Of a stretch of DNA of 64,000 nucleotides, positions 47,598 through 52,562 are shown piece by piece (the stretch's first letter is position 1; each line of letters opens with the position of its first letter). The translations under genes were made by a program, and so were the position numbers. The stretch covers positions 1 to 64,000 of the forward strand of contig JAJZTW010000015.1 of the NCBI GenBank assembly GCA_021847345.1. The letters run 5' to 3'. This DNA comes from Pseudomonadota bacterium. Its GTDB lineage: Bacteria > Pseudomonadota > Gammaproteobacteria > Burkholderiales > Burkholderiaceae_C. The notes beneath the pieces are model-generated. The model made no database searches, had not been told where the DNA came from, and worked only from the letters and a program-made list of their open reading frames with translations.

Positions 47598-48243
47598 GGC
47601 CGTCGAGCTCCGGCTGCACGCGGGAAGCCGGCGACGCCGGCGTCGGCGCCCCGACCAGTTGTGCCAGCAGTCCATGTTCGGCGCGCTGCAGCCAGCGCAC
47701 CGGCAGTTCTCCGGCCTGCCGCCCGAACGCGCGGTCGACCGCCCCCGCGGCTGCCACCTCGTCCCAGTCGCCCGGCGGGCGCGAGACCGACTTGACGAGA
47801 ACCAGCCCGGCAGCTCCGAGGTGACGGGCCAGCCACGCCGCGAGACTGTCGGAGCTCATGTCCCAGCAAGGCTCGATGCCCGCGCCGCGTTGCCCCAGGC
47901 GCAGCGGCAGCCACACCGGCGTGCAGCCGCGGCGAAGCGCGCGTTGCATGTCACGCATGGTGGCGCAGGGCTCGATCCCGGGCTGCATGGCGCAGCATTG
48001 ACGCGCGTACATTTCCATTCCCACCAGGGCCATTTCGTGCGCGGCGACATCGTCGAAGCGCCAGCGCGCCTGCGCGCGGCGCACGGCATCGGCATACGCG
48101 CCGCCGCCACCGACCAGCACCACGCGCGGCGCCAGCGCCACGCAGGAGCGAAGCCACGGCGCAAGCTCGTCGGCCTCGCCCAGGCTGCCGCCGAGCTTGA
48201 TCACCCAGGGCGCGCCGGGCGTGGAGTCGGGCGCGGGCTTCAC
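47590..48243 (-). CDS. Amino acid kinase-family protein (MfnE-like)
   Basis: 217 residues from GTG 48243, overlapping the preceding stop (GTGA). Amino acid kinase signatures: PWVIKLGGSLGEADELAPWL near the N-terminus, VVLVGGGGAYADAVR, and a C-terminal WDMSSDSLAAWLARHLGAAGLVLVKSV. In archaea MfnE phosphorylates the aminomethylfuran phosphate for coupling to tyramine; this is the likely function given mfnB and the decarboxylase in the same cluster. Smaller than metabolic amino acid kinases. Confidence 0.82.
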   Translation of the reverse strand: MKPAPDSTPGAPWVIKLGGSLGEADELAPWLRSCVALAPRVVLVGGGGAYADAVRRAQARWRFDDVAAHEMALVGMEMYARQCCAMQPGIEPCATMRDMQRALRRGCTPVWLPLRLGQRGAGIEPCWDMSSDSLAAWLARHLGAAGLVLVKSVSRPPGDWDEVAAAGAVDRAFGRQAGELPVRWLQRAEHGLLAQLVGAPTPASPASRVQPELDGHA

Positions 48244-49301
48244 GTCCGGCGCCCCAGGTAGAGCAGACCGACCGCCACCGCGGGGGCGCAGCGATCGGCC
48301 CAGGCGAGCGCGGGCTGGGCCTGCAGCCCCAGCGCCGTGCAATAGGGCCAGACCTGGCGCCCCAGGCGGTGCGCCAGGCGCTCGACCACGAAGGCACCGA
48401 CGCCGGCCGCGACCACCGGTGCGTGCGCGGGCAGCCCGCTGCGCTCGAGCACCCGGCGCGCCGCGGCCTCGATGCGCCCGAGCTGGACGTCGGCAAACCA
48501 GGCCGCCAGCGCCTCCCAGGTCTCGGGGGCATGGTCGCCGGCGTCGCAACCGACCATGCGCGCCAGGCGCTGGGCGCTGGCCGGCGCGGTCTTCGCGGCA
48601 CCGTCGGCGGTGTCGTGCTGGTCGGCGCCGTCGGGCAGCCAGCCGAGCACGCGGTAGACATCGGCGGTGGTGGCGAACAGTTCGGCCATCAGCGCGACGT
48701 GGCGCCCGCCCACCGGAGCCGATTCGCCCAGCGCCATCAGCGGAGTGCGAACCGCGCCGGTGTAGACGAGTTCGCCCAGCGCCAGCCGGTCGCTGTCGCA
48801 ATGCCCCTCGGCCAGCACGCGCCCGGCCGCCACGGGCACGATGTCCACCGTGGTGCTGCCCATGTCGACCAGCAGCGCATGATCCATGCGCGCGGCCAGC
48901 GCGCGCGCGCTGGCGTGCCAGTTGTTGGAGGCCGCCAGTTGCGGGCGCGCGCGCACCGCGGGGCCGCGCAGCCAGCCGCCGTCGGCGGCGTAGAAGTCGA
49001 CCCGGCGCGCTCCCAGATGCTGCTCCAGCGCGTCCACCAGGCTGCGCACGCCGTGCTCGCGCGTGGGAAACAGGTCGGCCATTTCTCCGGTCATGGTCAC
49101 CGCGTGGGCCACTGGCGAGCGCGGGCATTGGCGAGTCAACACCTCGTCGATGGCGCGGTGCAGCTGCTCGACCCCGCGCCACAGCGCGCATGGGCGCTGG
49201 CATACGTCGCGCAGCGCGCCGCCGGCGTCGAAGCACGACACCTTCAGATGGGCGCCGCCGACGTCCCAGCCCAGCACCGTCTCAGGTCGTCGTTGCGGCA
49301 T
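48240..49301 (-). CDS. Hydantoinase/oxoprolinase-like H4MPT-linked protein
   Basis: 353 residues from ATG 49301. ASKHA ATPase fold of the hydantoinase/oxoprolinase superfamily: VLGWDVGGAHLKVSCFDAGG, AVTMTGEMADLFPTREHGV, DHALLVDMGSTTVDIVPV and APVVAAGVGAFVVERLA. It fits the family annotated as probable H4MPT-linked C1 transfer pathway protein. By analogy with archaeal MfnF it may join the furan and amine parts of the methylofuran core. Ends overlap both neighbours, so co-translated. Confidence 0.83.
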   Translation of the reverse strand: MPQRRPETVLGWDVGGAHLKVSCFDAGGALRDVCQRPCALWRGVEQLHRAIDEVLTRQCPRSPVAHAVTMTGEMADLFPTREHGVRSLVDALEQHLGARRVDFYAADGGWLRGPAVRARPQLAASNNWHASARALAARMDHALLVDMGSTTVDIVPVAAGRVLAEGHCDSDRLALGELVYTGAVRTPLMALGESAPVGGRHVALMAELFATTADVYRVLGWLPDGADQHDTADGAAKTAPASAQRLARMVGCDAGDHAPETWEALAAWFADVQLGRIEAAARRVLERSGLPAHAPVVAAGVGAFVVERLAHRLGRQVWPYCTALGLQAQPALAWADRCAPAVAVGLLYLGRRT

Positions 49302-50301
49302 GTGCGAGCTCCACGCGCACGTTGCGCGACGGATGCGCCGGCGCGGGCAGGTGCGGCAGGTCCAGCAGCGCACGGGCCGGGTTCAGGCCCAGCGTCTCGC
49401 GCAGTCCGGCATACGACAGCGTGGCCCGCGGGTTGACCTCCAGCACCACCGGGCCGGCGGGGCCGAGCACCAGGTCGACGCCGGCGTGCCCCCACAGGCC
49501 GGCAAGCGCGCGCGCCACCGCGGCGGCCAGGCGGGCCAGCGTGCCGTCGGCGTCGCCGCATGCGCCCACCGTCACGCCATGCAGGCGCAGGACTCCGTCC
49601 TGTTCACCGATCCACTGCCGGTTGACGCTGAGCAGGCTCGCCCGGCCGTCGGCGCACAGCAGCGACAGCGACAGCGGCGTGCCCTCCACCCAGGGCTGGT
49701 ACACCGCGCGTTCACCGAGTTCGGCCTGCCCCCAGGCCCAGGCCCGGTCGGCCGTGTCGAAGCGGCGCTGCCCTTCACAGCCCACGCCGTCGTCGGGCTT
49801 GACGACCACGCCTGCGCGAACCAGGGCGCCGCCGCGCCACACGCGCGGGTCGCGCAGCGTGGGCACGCAGGGAACGCCGTGCGCGGCCAGCCACTGCGCG
49901 CATTGGATCTTGCTCGAGCACAGTCGCACGGTGGCCACGTCGCTGCCCAGCAGGCGACATCCGGCGTCGAGGGCCTGCCGGCTCAGCGTGGCGAGCTGGT
50001 CGCCGGTTTCCGGTGCCGTGAGCCACACGGCGTCACTGCGCGCCAGCTCGCGCTGCAGGACCTGCGGGAAGGCGCCGGCGCGCACCCCATGCAGCTCGAT
50101 TCCCGCGGGCGTGTCAAGGCACAGACGCGCATCGAGCAACGAGCTCACGCGCAGTCCGTCGGCGAGTTCCGGCGCCTCCAGCAGCGCGGCGAGGTCGGCC
50201 AGCTGTGCCTGGCGCATGCACTCGGCGTCGGCCAAAATGGCGGGCAGCGCAAGCTCGGACCATGCGCCGCCGGTGAGCGTTTCAACGTGCAGGAGTTTCA
50301 T
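49282..50301 (-). CDS. ATP-grasp ligase of the methylofuran/H4MPT cluster
   Basis: 339 residues from ATG 50301 (MKLLHVETLTGG); ATG 50322 (MIRSRRD...) is possible. ATP-grasp motifs are VRLCSSKIQCAQWLAAHGVPC, GVVVKPDDGVGCEGQ, YQPWVEGTPLSLSLL and VDLVLGPAGPVVLEVNPR. Probably a glutamate or amine ligase in cofactor side-chain assembly; substrate unassigned. First gene of the second minus-strand operon. Its start codon overlaps that of the opposite-strand HisA-like gene, so its promoter must lie inside that gene. Confidence 0.8.
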   Translation of the reverse strand: MKLLHVETLTGGAWSELALPAILADAECMRQAQLADLAALLEAPELADGLRVSSLLDARLCLDTPAGIELHGVRAGAFPQVLQRELARSDAVWLTAPETGDQLATLSRQALDAGCRLLGSDVATVRLCSSKIQCAQWLAAHGVPCVPTLRDPRVWRGGALVRAGVVVKPDDGVGCEGQRRFDTADRAWAWGQAELGERAVYQPWVEGTPLSLSLLCADGRASLLSVNRQWIGEQDGVLRLHGVTVGACGDADGTLARLAAAVARALAGLWGHAGVDLVLGPAGPVVLEVNPRATLSYAGLRETLGLNPARALLDLPHLPAPAHPSRNVRVELAHAATTT

Positions 50302-50998
50302 GTCCCGTCTGCTGCGAATCATTCCGGTACTCGACCTGCTCGGCGGGCAGGTGGTGCATGCCCGCCAGGGCCGGCGCGAGCAGTACCGGCCGCTGCGAAG
50401 CCCGCTGGCGCCGTCCGGCAGCGAGCCGCTGCAGGTGCTGCAGGGCCTGCTCGCGCTGCATGGCTTCGATACCGTATACCTCGCCGACCTCGACGCCCTG
50501 CAAGGCGCCGCGCCGCATCGCGAGGTGCTCGAGCGCATGCGCGCGAGCCATCCGCGCCTGCGCCTGTGGGTGGACGCCGGCGAGCACACGGCCACCCTTG
50601 CCGACGAATATGGCATCACCGGGGTGTTCGGCACCGAGACCCTGGCAGCCCCGCCGAGCGCGCCCGCGAAGCACCCCTGGGTGCTGTCGCTGGACTTCCG
50701 CGACGGACTGCCGCTGGGCGAGCACGCGGCCGCCTGGCTGGCCGCCCCCGGCTGCTGGCCCGACGACGTGGTGGTGATGAGCCTGGAGCGGGTCGGCGCC
50801 GCCGACGGCCCCGACCTGCCTCGCCTGCGCGAGCTGCGCGCACGGGCCCCGCACGCGCGCTGGCACGCCGCCGGCGGCGTGCGCGACGCGGCCGACCTGC
50901 GGCGATTGCGCAACCTGGGGCTTCATGGTGCCTTGCTCGCGTCGGCGCTGCATGACGGGCGCCTGGGCGCCGCGCAGCTGCGGCGCCTGGCGCTTTGA
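50300..50998 (+). CDS. HisA/HisF-like TIM-barrel protein
   Basis: 232 residues from ATG 50300, 5 nt after AGGAG. Resembles ProFAR isomerase: RIIPVLDLLGGQVVHARQGRR, FDTVYLADLDALQG, LRLWVDAGEHT, HPWVLSLDFRDG and RWHAAGGVRDAADLRRLRNLGLHGALLASALHDG. No histidine genes are nearby. HisA-like proteins of this type are part of the methanopterin/methanofuran gene set. It is a single plus-strand gene between two minus-strand operons, with 8 bp to the fae stop. Confidence 0.83.
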   Translation: MSRLLRIIPVLDLLGGQVVHARQGRREQYRPLRSPLAPSGSEPLQVLQGLLALHGFDTVYLADLDALQGAAPHREVLERMRASHPRLRLWVDAGEHTATLADEYGITGVFGTETLAAPPSAPAKHPWVLSLDFRDGLPLGEHAAAWLAAPGCWPDDVVVMSLERVGAADGPDLPRLRELRARAPHARWHAAGGVRDAADLRRLRNLGLHGALLASALHDGRLGAAQLRRLAL

Positions 50999-51006
50999 AT
51001 GCCGCG

Positions 51007-51519
51007 TCAGTTGTGCGCCGCGAACGGGTGCCCGGTCGAGGCCTTCTTCGCCACGACCTCGGAGGCCTTGGGCTGGCCCGAGATGGCTCGCGCGATGGCC
51101 TCCTTGGTCGCCTGGTAGTTGTAGTCCTGGATCTTCGCGTCGTCGGCCGCCAGCCAGTGGATGAACACGCCGACGCAGATGAACACATCGTCGGCCTCGT
51201 CGGCCGGAATGGTTCCGTTCTCGACGCTGTCGGCGACCGCCATCGCGACGCCGCGCTGGGCCGGGCCGAACATCTGCACCGCCTGCTTGGCGCCCTTGAT
51301 CGTGACCTTGTTGAACATCATGGTGTTGGGCTTGCAGGGCAGGTTCGGCGCCACCACCGCGAGCAGGCTGGTGAAGCCGTCCTTGTTGTTGACCAGGCCC
51401 TGGCAGAACGCGGCCTCGACGGCGCTTCCGCGCGGGCCCATGATGAGGTCGATGTGCGCCACCTCGTTGCCGTCGCCCACCAGCGACTCGCCCACCATCA
51501 CGCGATTGATCTTGCTCAT
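51007..51519 (-). CDS. fae: Formaldehyde-activating enzyme Fae
   Basis: 170 residues from ATG 51519 behind AAGGAGAAGAGC, the length and start of known Fae. Condenses formaldehyde with tetrahydromethanopterin to methylene-H4MPT in the cytoplasm. Highly typical sequence: [20 protein letters not shown] with the catalytic His, [38 protein letters not shown] and [10 protein letters not shown]. The frame stays open upstream to a further ATG at 51648 (see next entry). Last gene of the mptG-mtdB-mch operon. Confidence 0.97.
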
Positions 51520-51648
51520 GCTCTTCTCCTTGGTTGCAACCGACCCGGGTTTACCCTGTGCAGCCGCTGACGCCGGATCCACGCCCTGCGACTGGTCTGC
51601 CCGCGGATTCGCGAACAGGCTCTTGATCTCATCCCATAGGCTCGTCAT
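51520..51648 (-). other. In-frame 43-codon segment upstream of fae with its own coupled start
   Basis: ATG 51648 overlaps the stop of the CitG-like gene as ATGA, follows AGGGAAGG, and is in frame with fae without a stop. It would add a hydrophilic, amphipathic extension ([20 protein letters not shown]...) to Fae. It could be a translated leader, an alternative N-terminus, or chance. Confidence 0.5.
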
Positions 51649-52562
51649 GCCTTCCCTGCCTCCCCTTGTGGTGATCCGGAACCGCTGCCGGCGAGCGCCT
51701 GCCCGGCGGCGCCAAGGCGCTCGGCGAGCAGCGTGGCCACCGTCAGGTCGGCACTTGTTCCGGGGTTGATTCCGCGCTGCCGGCAATCGCGGTCGAGTCG
51801 ATGCAGCGCCTGCTGCCAGTGGGCACCGGCCAGCACATCGCTGCGACAGCGGCGCGCCTGCTGGCGCAGTTCGCGCGCGCACGAGGCACCGTGCTTGCGC
51901 GCCACGTGGCTGTCGTCGAATGCACAGAGGAAGTCCAGGAAGGTCAGCGCCACGGCGGCGCACTCCCGGCCCCGGCGGGCGCGCTCGCGGCGCAGCGCGG
52001 GCAGCCCGAGATCGAACACGTCCGCGTAGTCCGTGACGTACTGGGCGGCGACGAGGTCGCGCGCGGCGGCCTCGCGCATCGCCTGCAGCAGGCTCGCCTG
52101 CGCCGGCTGCCGCACGTCGTGGCGCGCGCTGTGTCCGAGCCCGGCCGGCTCCGCCAGCGCGATGGCCTCGAAGGCGCAGCTCGCGTCGTGCACGTCGAGC
52201 TCGCGCAGGCTGCGGCCCAGCGCCAGGCGCAGGTCCGCCGACGCCTCGCCGCGTTGCCAGGCATGCAGCAACGGCGCGCACAGCAGCACGATTCCCAGGT
52301 TGGTGTTGCAGCCGACCTCGGCCCGCGTGGCACGCACCGCATGCAGCACGCGCTCGCCGATGCTCAGGCCGAGGCAGGCCAGCGGCGCCGCGCTGACGCG
52401 CGCGCTGCGCAGGAAATCGCGCGCCGTCATGCCGTGCGCGGGCCCGCCCACGCGCACGTTGCCGGGCTTGGCGCAGGCCACGTCGGCATGACAGGCGATG
52501 CGGTAGGCCTGCATGGCGCGGCGCTCGAGCGCCGCGGCGCCGTCGTGGTGCGGGTGGCCCAT
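51645..52562 (-). CDS. CitG/MdcB-like (triphosphoribosyl-dephospho-CoA synthase family) protein
   Basis: 305 residues from ATG 52562 behind GAGGAGCC. All-helical CitG fold with [18 protein letters not shown] near the N-terminus, [20 protein letters not shown], and [20 protein letters not shown] near the end. Family members transfer a ribosyl-phosphate from ATP, fitting the ribosyl-phosphate side chain of methanopterin-type cofactors. No citrate or malonate decarboxylase genes are nearby. Stop overlaps the upstream start for fae. Confidence 0.83.

Follow-up and report, generated by a model that had tools for sequence, protein, structure and literature searches.

Overlapping start codons of a divergent methylofuran gene pair, with a putative promoter for one gene in the first codons of the other

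Divergent overlaps between genes are thought to be purged, as start regions carry too many signals. They account for 1% of well-characterised overlaps (457/42,055; PMC2478687) and are strongly underrepresented (PMC2174442), and annotated long divergent overlaps usually stem from start prediction errors (PMC2478687). The window analysed here, a 64,000-nucleotide stretch of contig JAJZTW010000015.1 from a Pseudomonadota bacterium, holds a HisA-like gene and an ATP-grasp gene on opposite strands that appear to begin within the same four bases. Do the two genes indeed leave no DNA between them, is the arrangement kept in relatives, and where would the signals for transcription and translation of each gene lie?

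A shared start between two methylofuran genes

The junction and its two genes are composed of the following features.

50300..50998, + strand: HisA-like TIM-barrel gene of the Orf17 type, methylofuran biosynthesis (PF00977, TIGR00734, context)
49282..50301, − strand: ATP-grasp gene, MfnD-like, of the tyramine/tyrosine-glutamate ligase type (PF02655, PF18301)
50299..50302, both strands: CATG, the palindromic shared start, read in the sequence
50300–50302 (+) and 50301–50299 (−): ATG of the hisA-like gene and ATG of the mfnD-like gene, both inside CATG, read in the sequence
50302..50322, − strand: possible 7-codon 5′ extension of the mfnD-like gene from ATG 50322, with the same ATG in the relatives L031 and L032

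Read directly, positions 50281–50322 are TTCAACGTGCAGGAGTTTCATGTCCCGTCTGCTGCGAATCAT, and the start codons of the two genes overlap by 2 bp, as the original prediction had stated. The palindrome accounts for CATG itself, which is the cheapest packing of two starts, since a C before an ATG automatically makes an ATG on the opposite strand. The ATG at 50322 is in frame with the mfnD-like gene, and its use would extend the overlap to 23 bp, which had likewise been proposed. Start codons throughout are predictions. On the antisense of mfnF and mfnD, a 933-codon open frame (48197–50998, +) continues in the frame of the hisA-like gene and makes mechanical start calling unsafe. This long frame upstream of the hisA-like gene is a high-GC artefact, and homology puts the hisA-like start at 50300.

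A misassigned start, with one gene really beginning further inside and an intergenic gap left, would fit the prediction errors that usually lie behind such annotations (PMC2478687), but is very improbable at this locus. No ATG, GTG or TTG start that opens a gap and retains both first β-strands was found in either gene. The next internal hisA-like start is a GTG at +51, whose use drops the first β-strand, while the next in the mfnD-like gene, TTG 50235, drops the conserved N-terminal strand and a glycine-rich stretch. The starts in L031 and L032 are identical to those of the window. The claim that no intergenic DNA separates the genes therefore stands, and no downstream start opens a gap except at the cost of a first β-strand. 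By the same first-β-strand rule, the overlap is unavoidable in 10/99 loci holding both genes.

The HisA-like protein scores 66.7 bits against PF00977 (cut-off 23.6) and 81.5 bits against TIGR00734 (hisAF_rel), under the curated cut-off of 179.85. Its PF00977 domain lies within an H4MPT/methylofuran cluster, with fae, mch, mfnF and mfnE as neighbours, and on this domain and context, as given in PMC8141765, the protein corresponds to Orf17. The same paper describes Orf17 as essential for methylofuran, which Methylorubrum no longer makes once orf17 is deleted, and expects MfnD homologues to ligate glutamate and tyramine. PF02655 (98.5 bits) and PF18301 (56.1 bits) match the ATP-grasp protein; its score against the NCBIfam MfnD model (NF040722, tyramine-L-glutamate ligase; E 2.7e-11, 43.4 bits) is under the cut-off of 400, so we name it MfnD-like only. 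Both are methylofuran genes. The original prediction had placed them in one cofactor pathway, which these profile matches and PMC8141765 identify as methylofuran; the exact reactions of both proteins in the window's organism we infer.

Orientation and spacing across relatives

Relatives were sampled at the levels of order, class, family and phylum, together with named records. The two genes, hereafter hisA and mfnD, are divergent in all 99 distinct loci that hold both and are mostly tight, which confirms that the arrangement is conserved in related clusters. The start-to-start gap has a median of 13 nt when the nearest plausible start is used and of 18 nt when the largest possible gap is taken, with a range across relatives of −11 to 230. 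As a baseline we took 32 divergent pairs from annotated plasmids of Azoarcus and Paraburkholderia, 200 kb in all; Cupriavidus plasmid stretches, being without annotation, add nothing to it. The median gap of these ordinary pairs is about 221 nt (n=32), and hisA/mfnD gaps are far smaller (p 5e-14, in a test that treats as equals loci related by descent and not fully independent). Gaps within 20 nt occur in 61/99 hisA/mfnD pairs versus 1/32 baseline pairs, and the sole baseline case involves a doubtful hypothetical gene. The closeness of hisA and mfnD exceeds chance. Several loci are without mfnD at the head (L065, L067, L071, L077, L096 and others) and have mfnF there, divergent from hisA, and their median gap is larger, at 62 nt (n=18); the hisA/mfnD gaps are smaller than these (p 5e-6).

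The loci with CATG are those of the window clade (L001, L031, L032), L005, the f2 group (L022, L024, L025, L026), L083, L088 and L139, and other loci have it as an alternative start pair. The identical 2-bp overlap is annotated, and CATG read, in plasmids of Azoarcus KH32C, Azospirillum ramasamyi and Azospirillum oryzae. The locus is thus a divergent overlapping pair, in that the 5′ ends of its opposite-strand coding regions overlap and the overlap is kept elsewhere, in L031, L032 and these three annotated plasmid records. CATG or a longer overlap occurs in several separate branches. On a quick tree the CATG label changes 13 times, with at least four changes forced by well-supported branches, the number of origins being a rough count.

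In L017, L023 and L027, no choice of canonical starts avoids a longer 5′ overlap (8–11 bp). In L023 the mfnD ATG of CATG has been lost, and the start is shifted two codons upstream, into hisA.

Expression signals in the partner's codons

The original prediction held that each ribosome site and promoter must lie in the coding region of the other gene. Two further positions within mfnD bear on it.

50291..50295, + strand: AGGAG, Shine-Dalgarno (SD) site of the HisA-like gene, antisense of mfnD codons 3–4 (CTC CTG)
50274..50282, + strand: place of the extended −10 element of relatives; the window reads TGAGCGTTT, no match

For the ribosome sites, the statement applies to hisA. AGGAG sits within mfnD, 4 nt before the hisA ATG, with an anti-SD energy of −6.9 kcal/mol, a value within the best 4.5% for random 20-mers, and is kept in L031 and L032. 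The mfnD start at ATG 50301 has no SD (−1.4 kcal/mol), and ATG 50322 has a weak one (−5.6). The SD is often poor for both genes in tight pairs, many members have none for either, and codon-choice tuning of SDs across tight pairs gave no signal. We also considered AGGAG of the window clade as a selected site and rejected it: L018 has the same AGGAGTTTCATG, from the mfnD MKLL codons, with hisA 55 nt away.

For promoters, a −10 weight matrix was fixed before sequence inspection and compared with GC3-matched synonymous shuffles. The antisense −10-like score of mfnD codons 1–20 exceeds that of the shuffles (mean z 0.60, p 3e-4), and no such excess appears on the mfnD sense strand or in mfnF or fae. 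Synonymous change is lowered in mfnD codons 2–16, with a ratio of 0.68 (p 8.5e-5) and of 0.62 in tight pairs; the ratios elsewhere are 0.83 in hisA, 0.86 in the control mfnF and 1.05 in fae. An extended −10 pattern, written post hoc after inspecting the sequences, points at hisA from mfnD codons 1–15 in 41/98 loci against 14.6 ± 3.3 expected, and in family f1 this post hoc pattern is present in 18/34 against 1.8 expected. No excess of it was found in mfnF or fae. As in the gap comparison, these codon tests give related loci equal weight. Its commonest forms, TGAGATACT and TGATAAACT, end ~19 nt inside mfnD and are aimed at hisA.

The claim on promoters thus survives in part. At the family level, the signal places a candidate hisA promoter within mfnD, but the extended −10 is not present in the window's own copy or in L032, and a sigma-70 promoter scan of 49200–51700 returned none. 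Nor was a comparable signal for mfnD found near the hisA start: neither extra constraint nor a promoter signal is clear in the hisA 5′ codons by the substitution, −10 matrix and extended −10 tests. The word "must" was too strong, since in the window's arrangement fae read-through could feed mfnD, and either mRNA could be leaderless. Further inside hisA, codons 46–60 show a weak antisense extended −10 excess in relatives (9 versus 4.2 expected), a possible mfnD promoter site.

Routes of transcription and competing explanations

Around the pair, the window has the following arrangement.

48240..49295, − strand: mfnF-like gene, next after mfnD (TIGR03123, 325.8 bits)
50999..51006: 8-bp gap from the hisA-like stop to the stop of the convergent fae, without a terminator-like site
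51007..51522, − strand: fae (formaldehyde-activating enzyme), the nearest same-strand gene upstream of mfnD (TIGR03126, 248.8 bits)

The minus strand carries mfnF-, mfnE- and mfnA-like genes downstream of mfnD, and fae, citG-like, RimK/MptN-like and mch genes upstream. The scan of 49200–51700 gave no terminators, and there were no Rfam matches. Behind hisA, fae is convergent in 53 loci, the window among them, and fhcB lies on the hisA strand in 32 loci, mostly of family f1. In Azospirillum oryzae (L147:5001-6196), the hisA-like gene shares 2 bp with mfnD at the 5′ end and 22 bp with fae at the 3′ end, so that intergenic DNA is lacking on both of its flanks.

Because the starts touch, a hisA promoter would have to be situated on the left, within or past mfnD, and one for mfnD on the right, within or past hisA, so that the promoters would face each other though the genes diverge. 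Our preferred reading, which we hold with some confidence, is a conserved zero-spacer divergent methylofuran pair in Proteobacteria in which hisA is transcribed from a promoter within the first codons of mfnD. It builds on the overlap, the conserved orientation and compactness, the codon-level promoter signal in relatives and the hisA SD, and from these it would predict promoter activity, read-through, overlapping mRNAs and any interference. In many lineages, mfnD codon choice would create an extended −10 element serving hisA, and in the window clade mfnD codons also hold the hisA ribosome site. mfnD itself is probably reached either by read-through of the fae operon across hisA or by a promoter in hisA; the former would apply to the window arrangement, with its run from fae, and the latter where fhc genes follow hisA. 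Any mRNAs with a leader would have complementary 5′ regions, and the antisense 5′ transcripts and possible mutual interference of the original prediction are plausible. A more tentative extension, on the doubtful side in our judgement, is that in Proteobacteria with the cluster the shared start region serves as both mfnD coding sequence and orf17 promoter, and that face-to-face transcription balances the methylofuran enzymes.

A noncontiguous operon is one alternative. In such an operon, mch-orf5-citG-fae-(antisense hisA)-mfnD-mfnF-mfnE-mfnA would form one minus-strand transcript, and hisA would be an interspersed opposite gene with mutual regulation via RNase III and polymerase collision. hisA is the sole plus-strand gene between fae and mfnD, bounded by the 8-bp gap without a terminator-like site and the 2-bp overlap, and the 53 loci with convergent fae and the 22-bp hisA/fae overlap in A. 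oryzae fit the same picture. The Methylosinus island, ordered mch-orf5-orf7-fae1-fae1/2-orf17, also points this way: its expression listing gives fae1 24353 versus orf17 38 (PMC3615186), which makes strong antisense traffic over orf17 conceivable. However, such a transcript is impossible in the 32 loci with fhcB behind hisA, which include most of f1, and the pair is close there nonetheless (median largest gap 31.5 nt). We regard the noncontiguous operon as possible but on balance unlikely.

The closeness could instead be incidental, with start shifts free, CATG arising by chance, and weak promoters or leaderless mRNAs serving unregulated genes. A shared CATG requires just a C ahead of an in-phase ATG, the gaps extend up to 230 nt and down to −11, and the many members without an SD for either gene also suit neutral packing. 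Against this, the orientation is invariant, close spacing is retained from family to family, in contrast to the wider spacers of mfnF-headed loci, and the codon signal in mfnD is strand-specific. Neutral packing therefore appears rather unlikely.

Among known systems, the pair resembles the rare class of short divergent (5′–5′) prokaryotic overlaps (PMC2478687, PMC2174442) in its opposite strands and overlapping 5′ ends, but differs in being one functional pair, tight across many families, with a codon-level promoter signal in the partner. The noncontiguous operon menE-menC-MW1733-ytkD-MW1731 of Staphylococcus aureus (PMC7154746) likewise has an opposite-strand gene with tight borders in a cofactor-pathway run, and at the window locus hisA does lie within a functionally linked run on the other strand; many hisA/mfnD relatives, in contrast, have fhc genes on the strand of hisA, which excludes this organisation there. 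Excludons (PMC7154746) resemble the pair in that its two coding transcripts are predicted to be complementary at their 5′ ends, but the excludons described so far were established from long transcripts that had been mapped and from opposed expression. The methylotroph genes orf17 and mfnD-like orf1 are of the same families in the same cluster (PMC8141765), and the excerpts of that paper, which concerns the function of the methylofuran genes, do not mention a shared start. A pair that is divergent and near-touching across many families, with codons apparently shaped into a promoter for the partner, is a testable example from nature of dual coding and regulation, and it ties the early methylofuran genes together, and to fae, in a formaldehyde-handling pathway.

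The window genome is a 117-contig assembly. The HisA-like gene is absent from five other genomes of its genus, and in a quick tree the window's HisA branches apart from the copies of its family, together with two metagenome-assembled genomes titled 'Proteobacteria bacterium'. This absence and branching indicate that the cluster was acquired horizontally or that the contig was misbinned from another organism, and either origin leaves the overlap itself unaffected.
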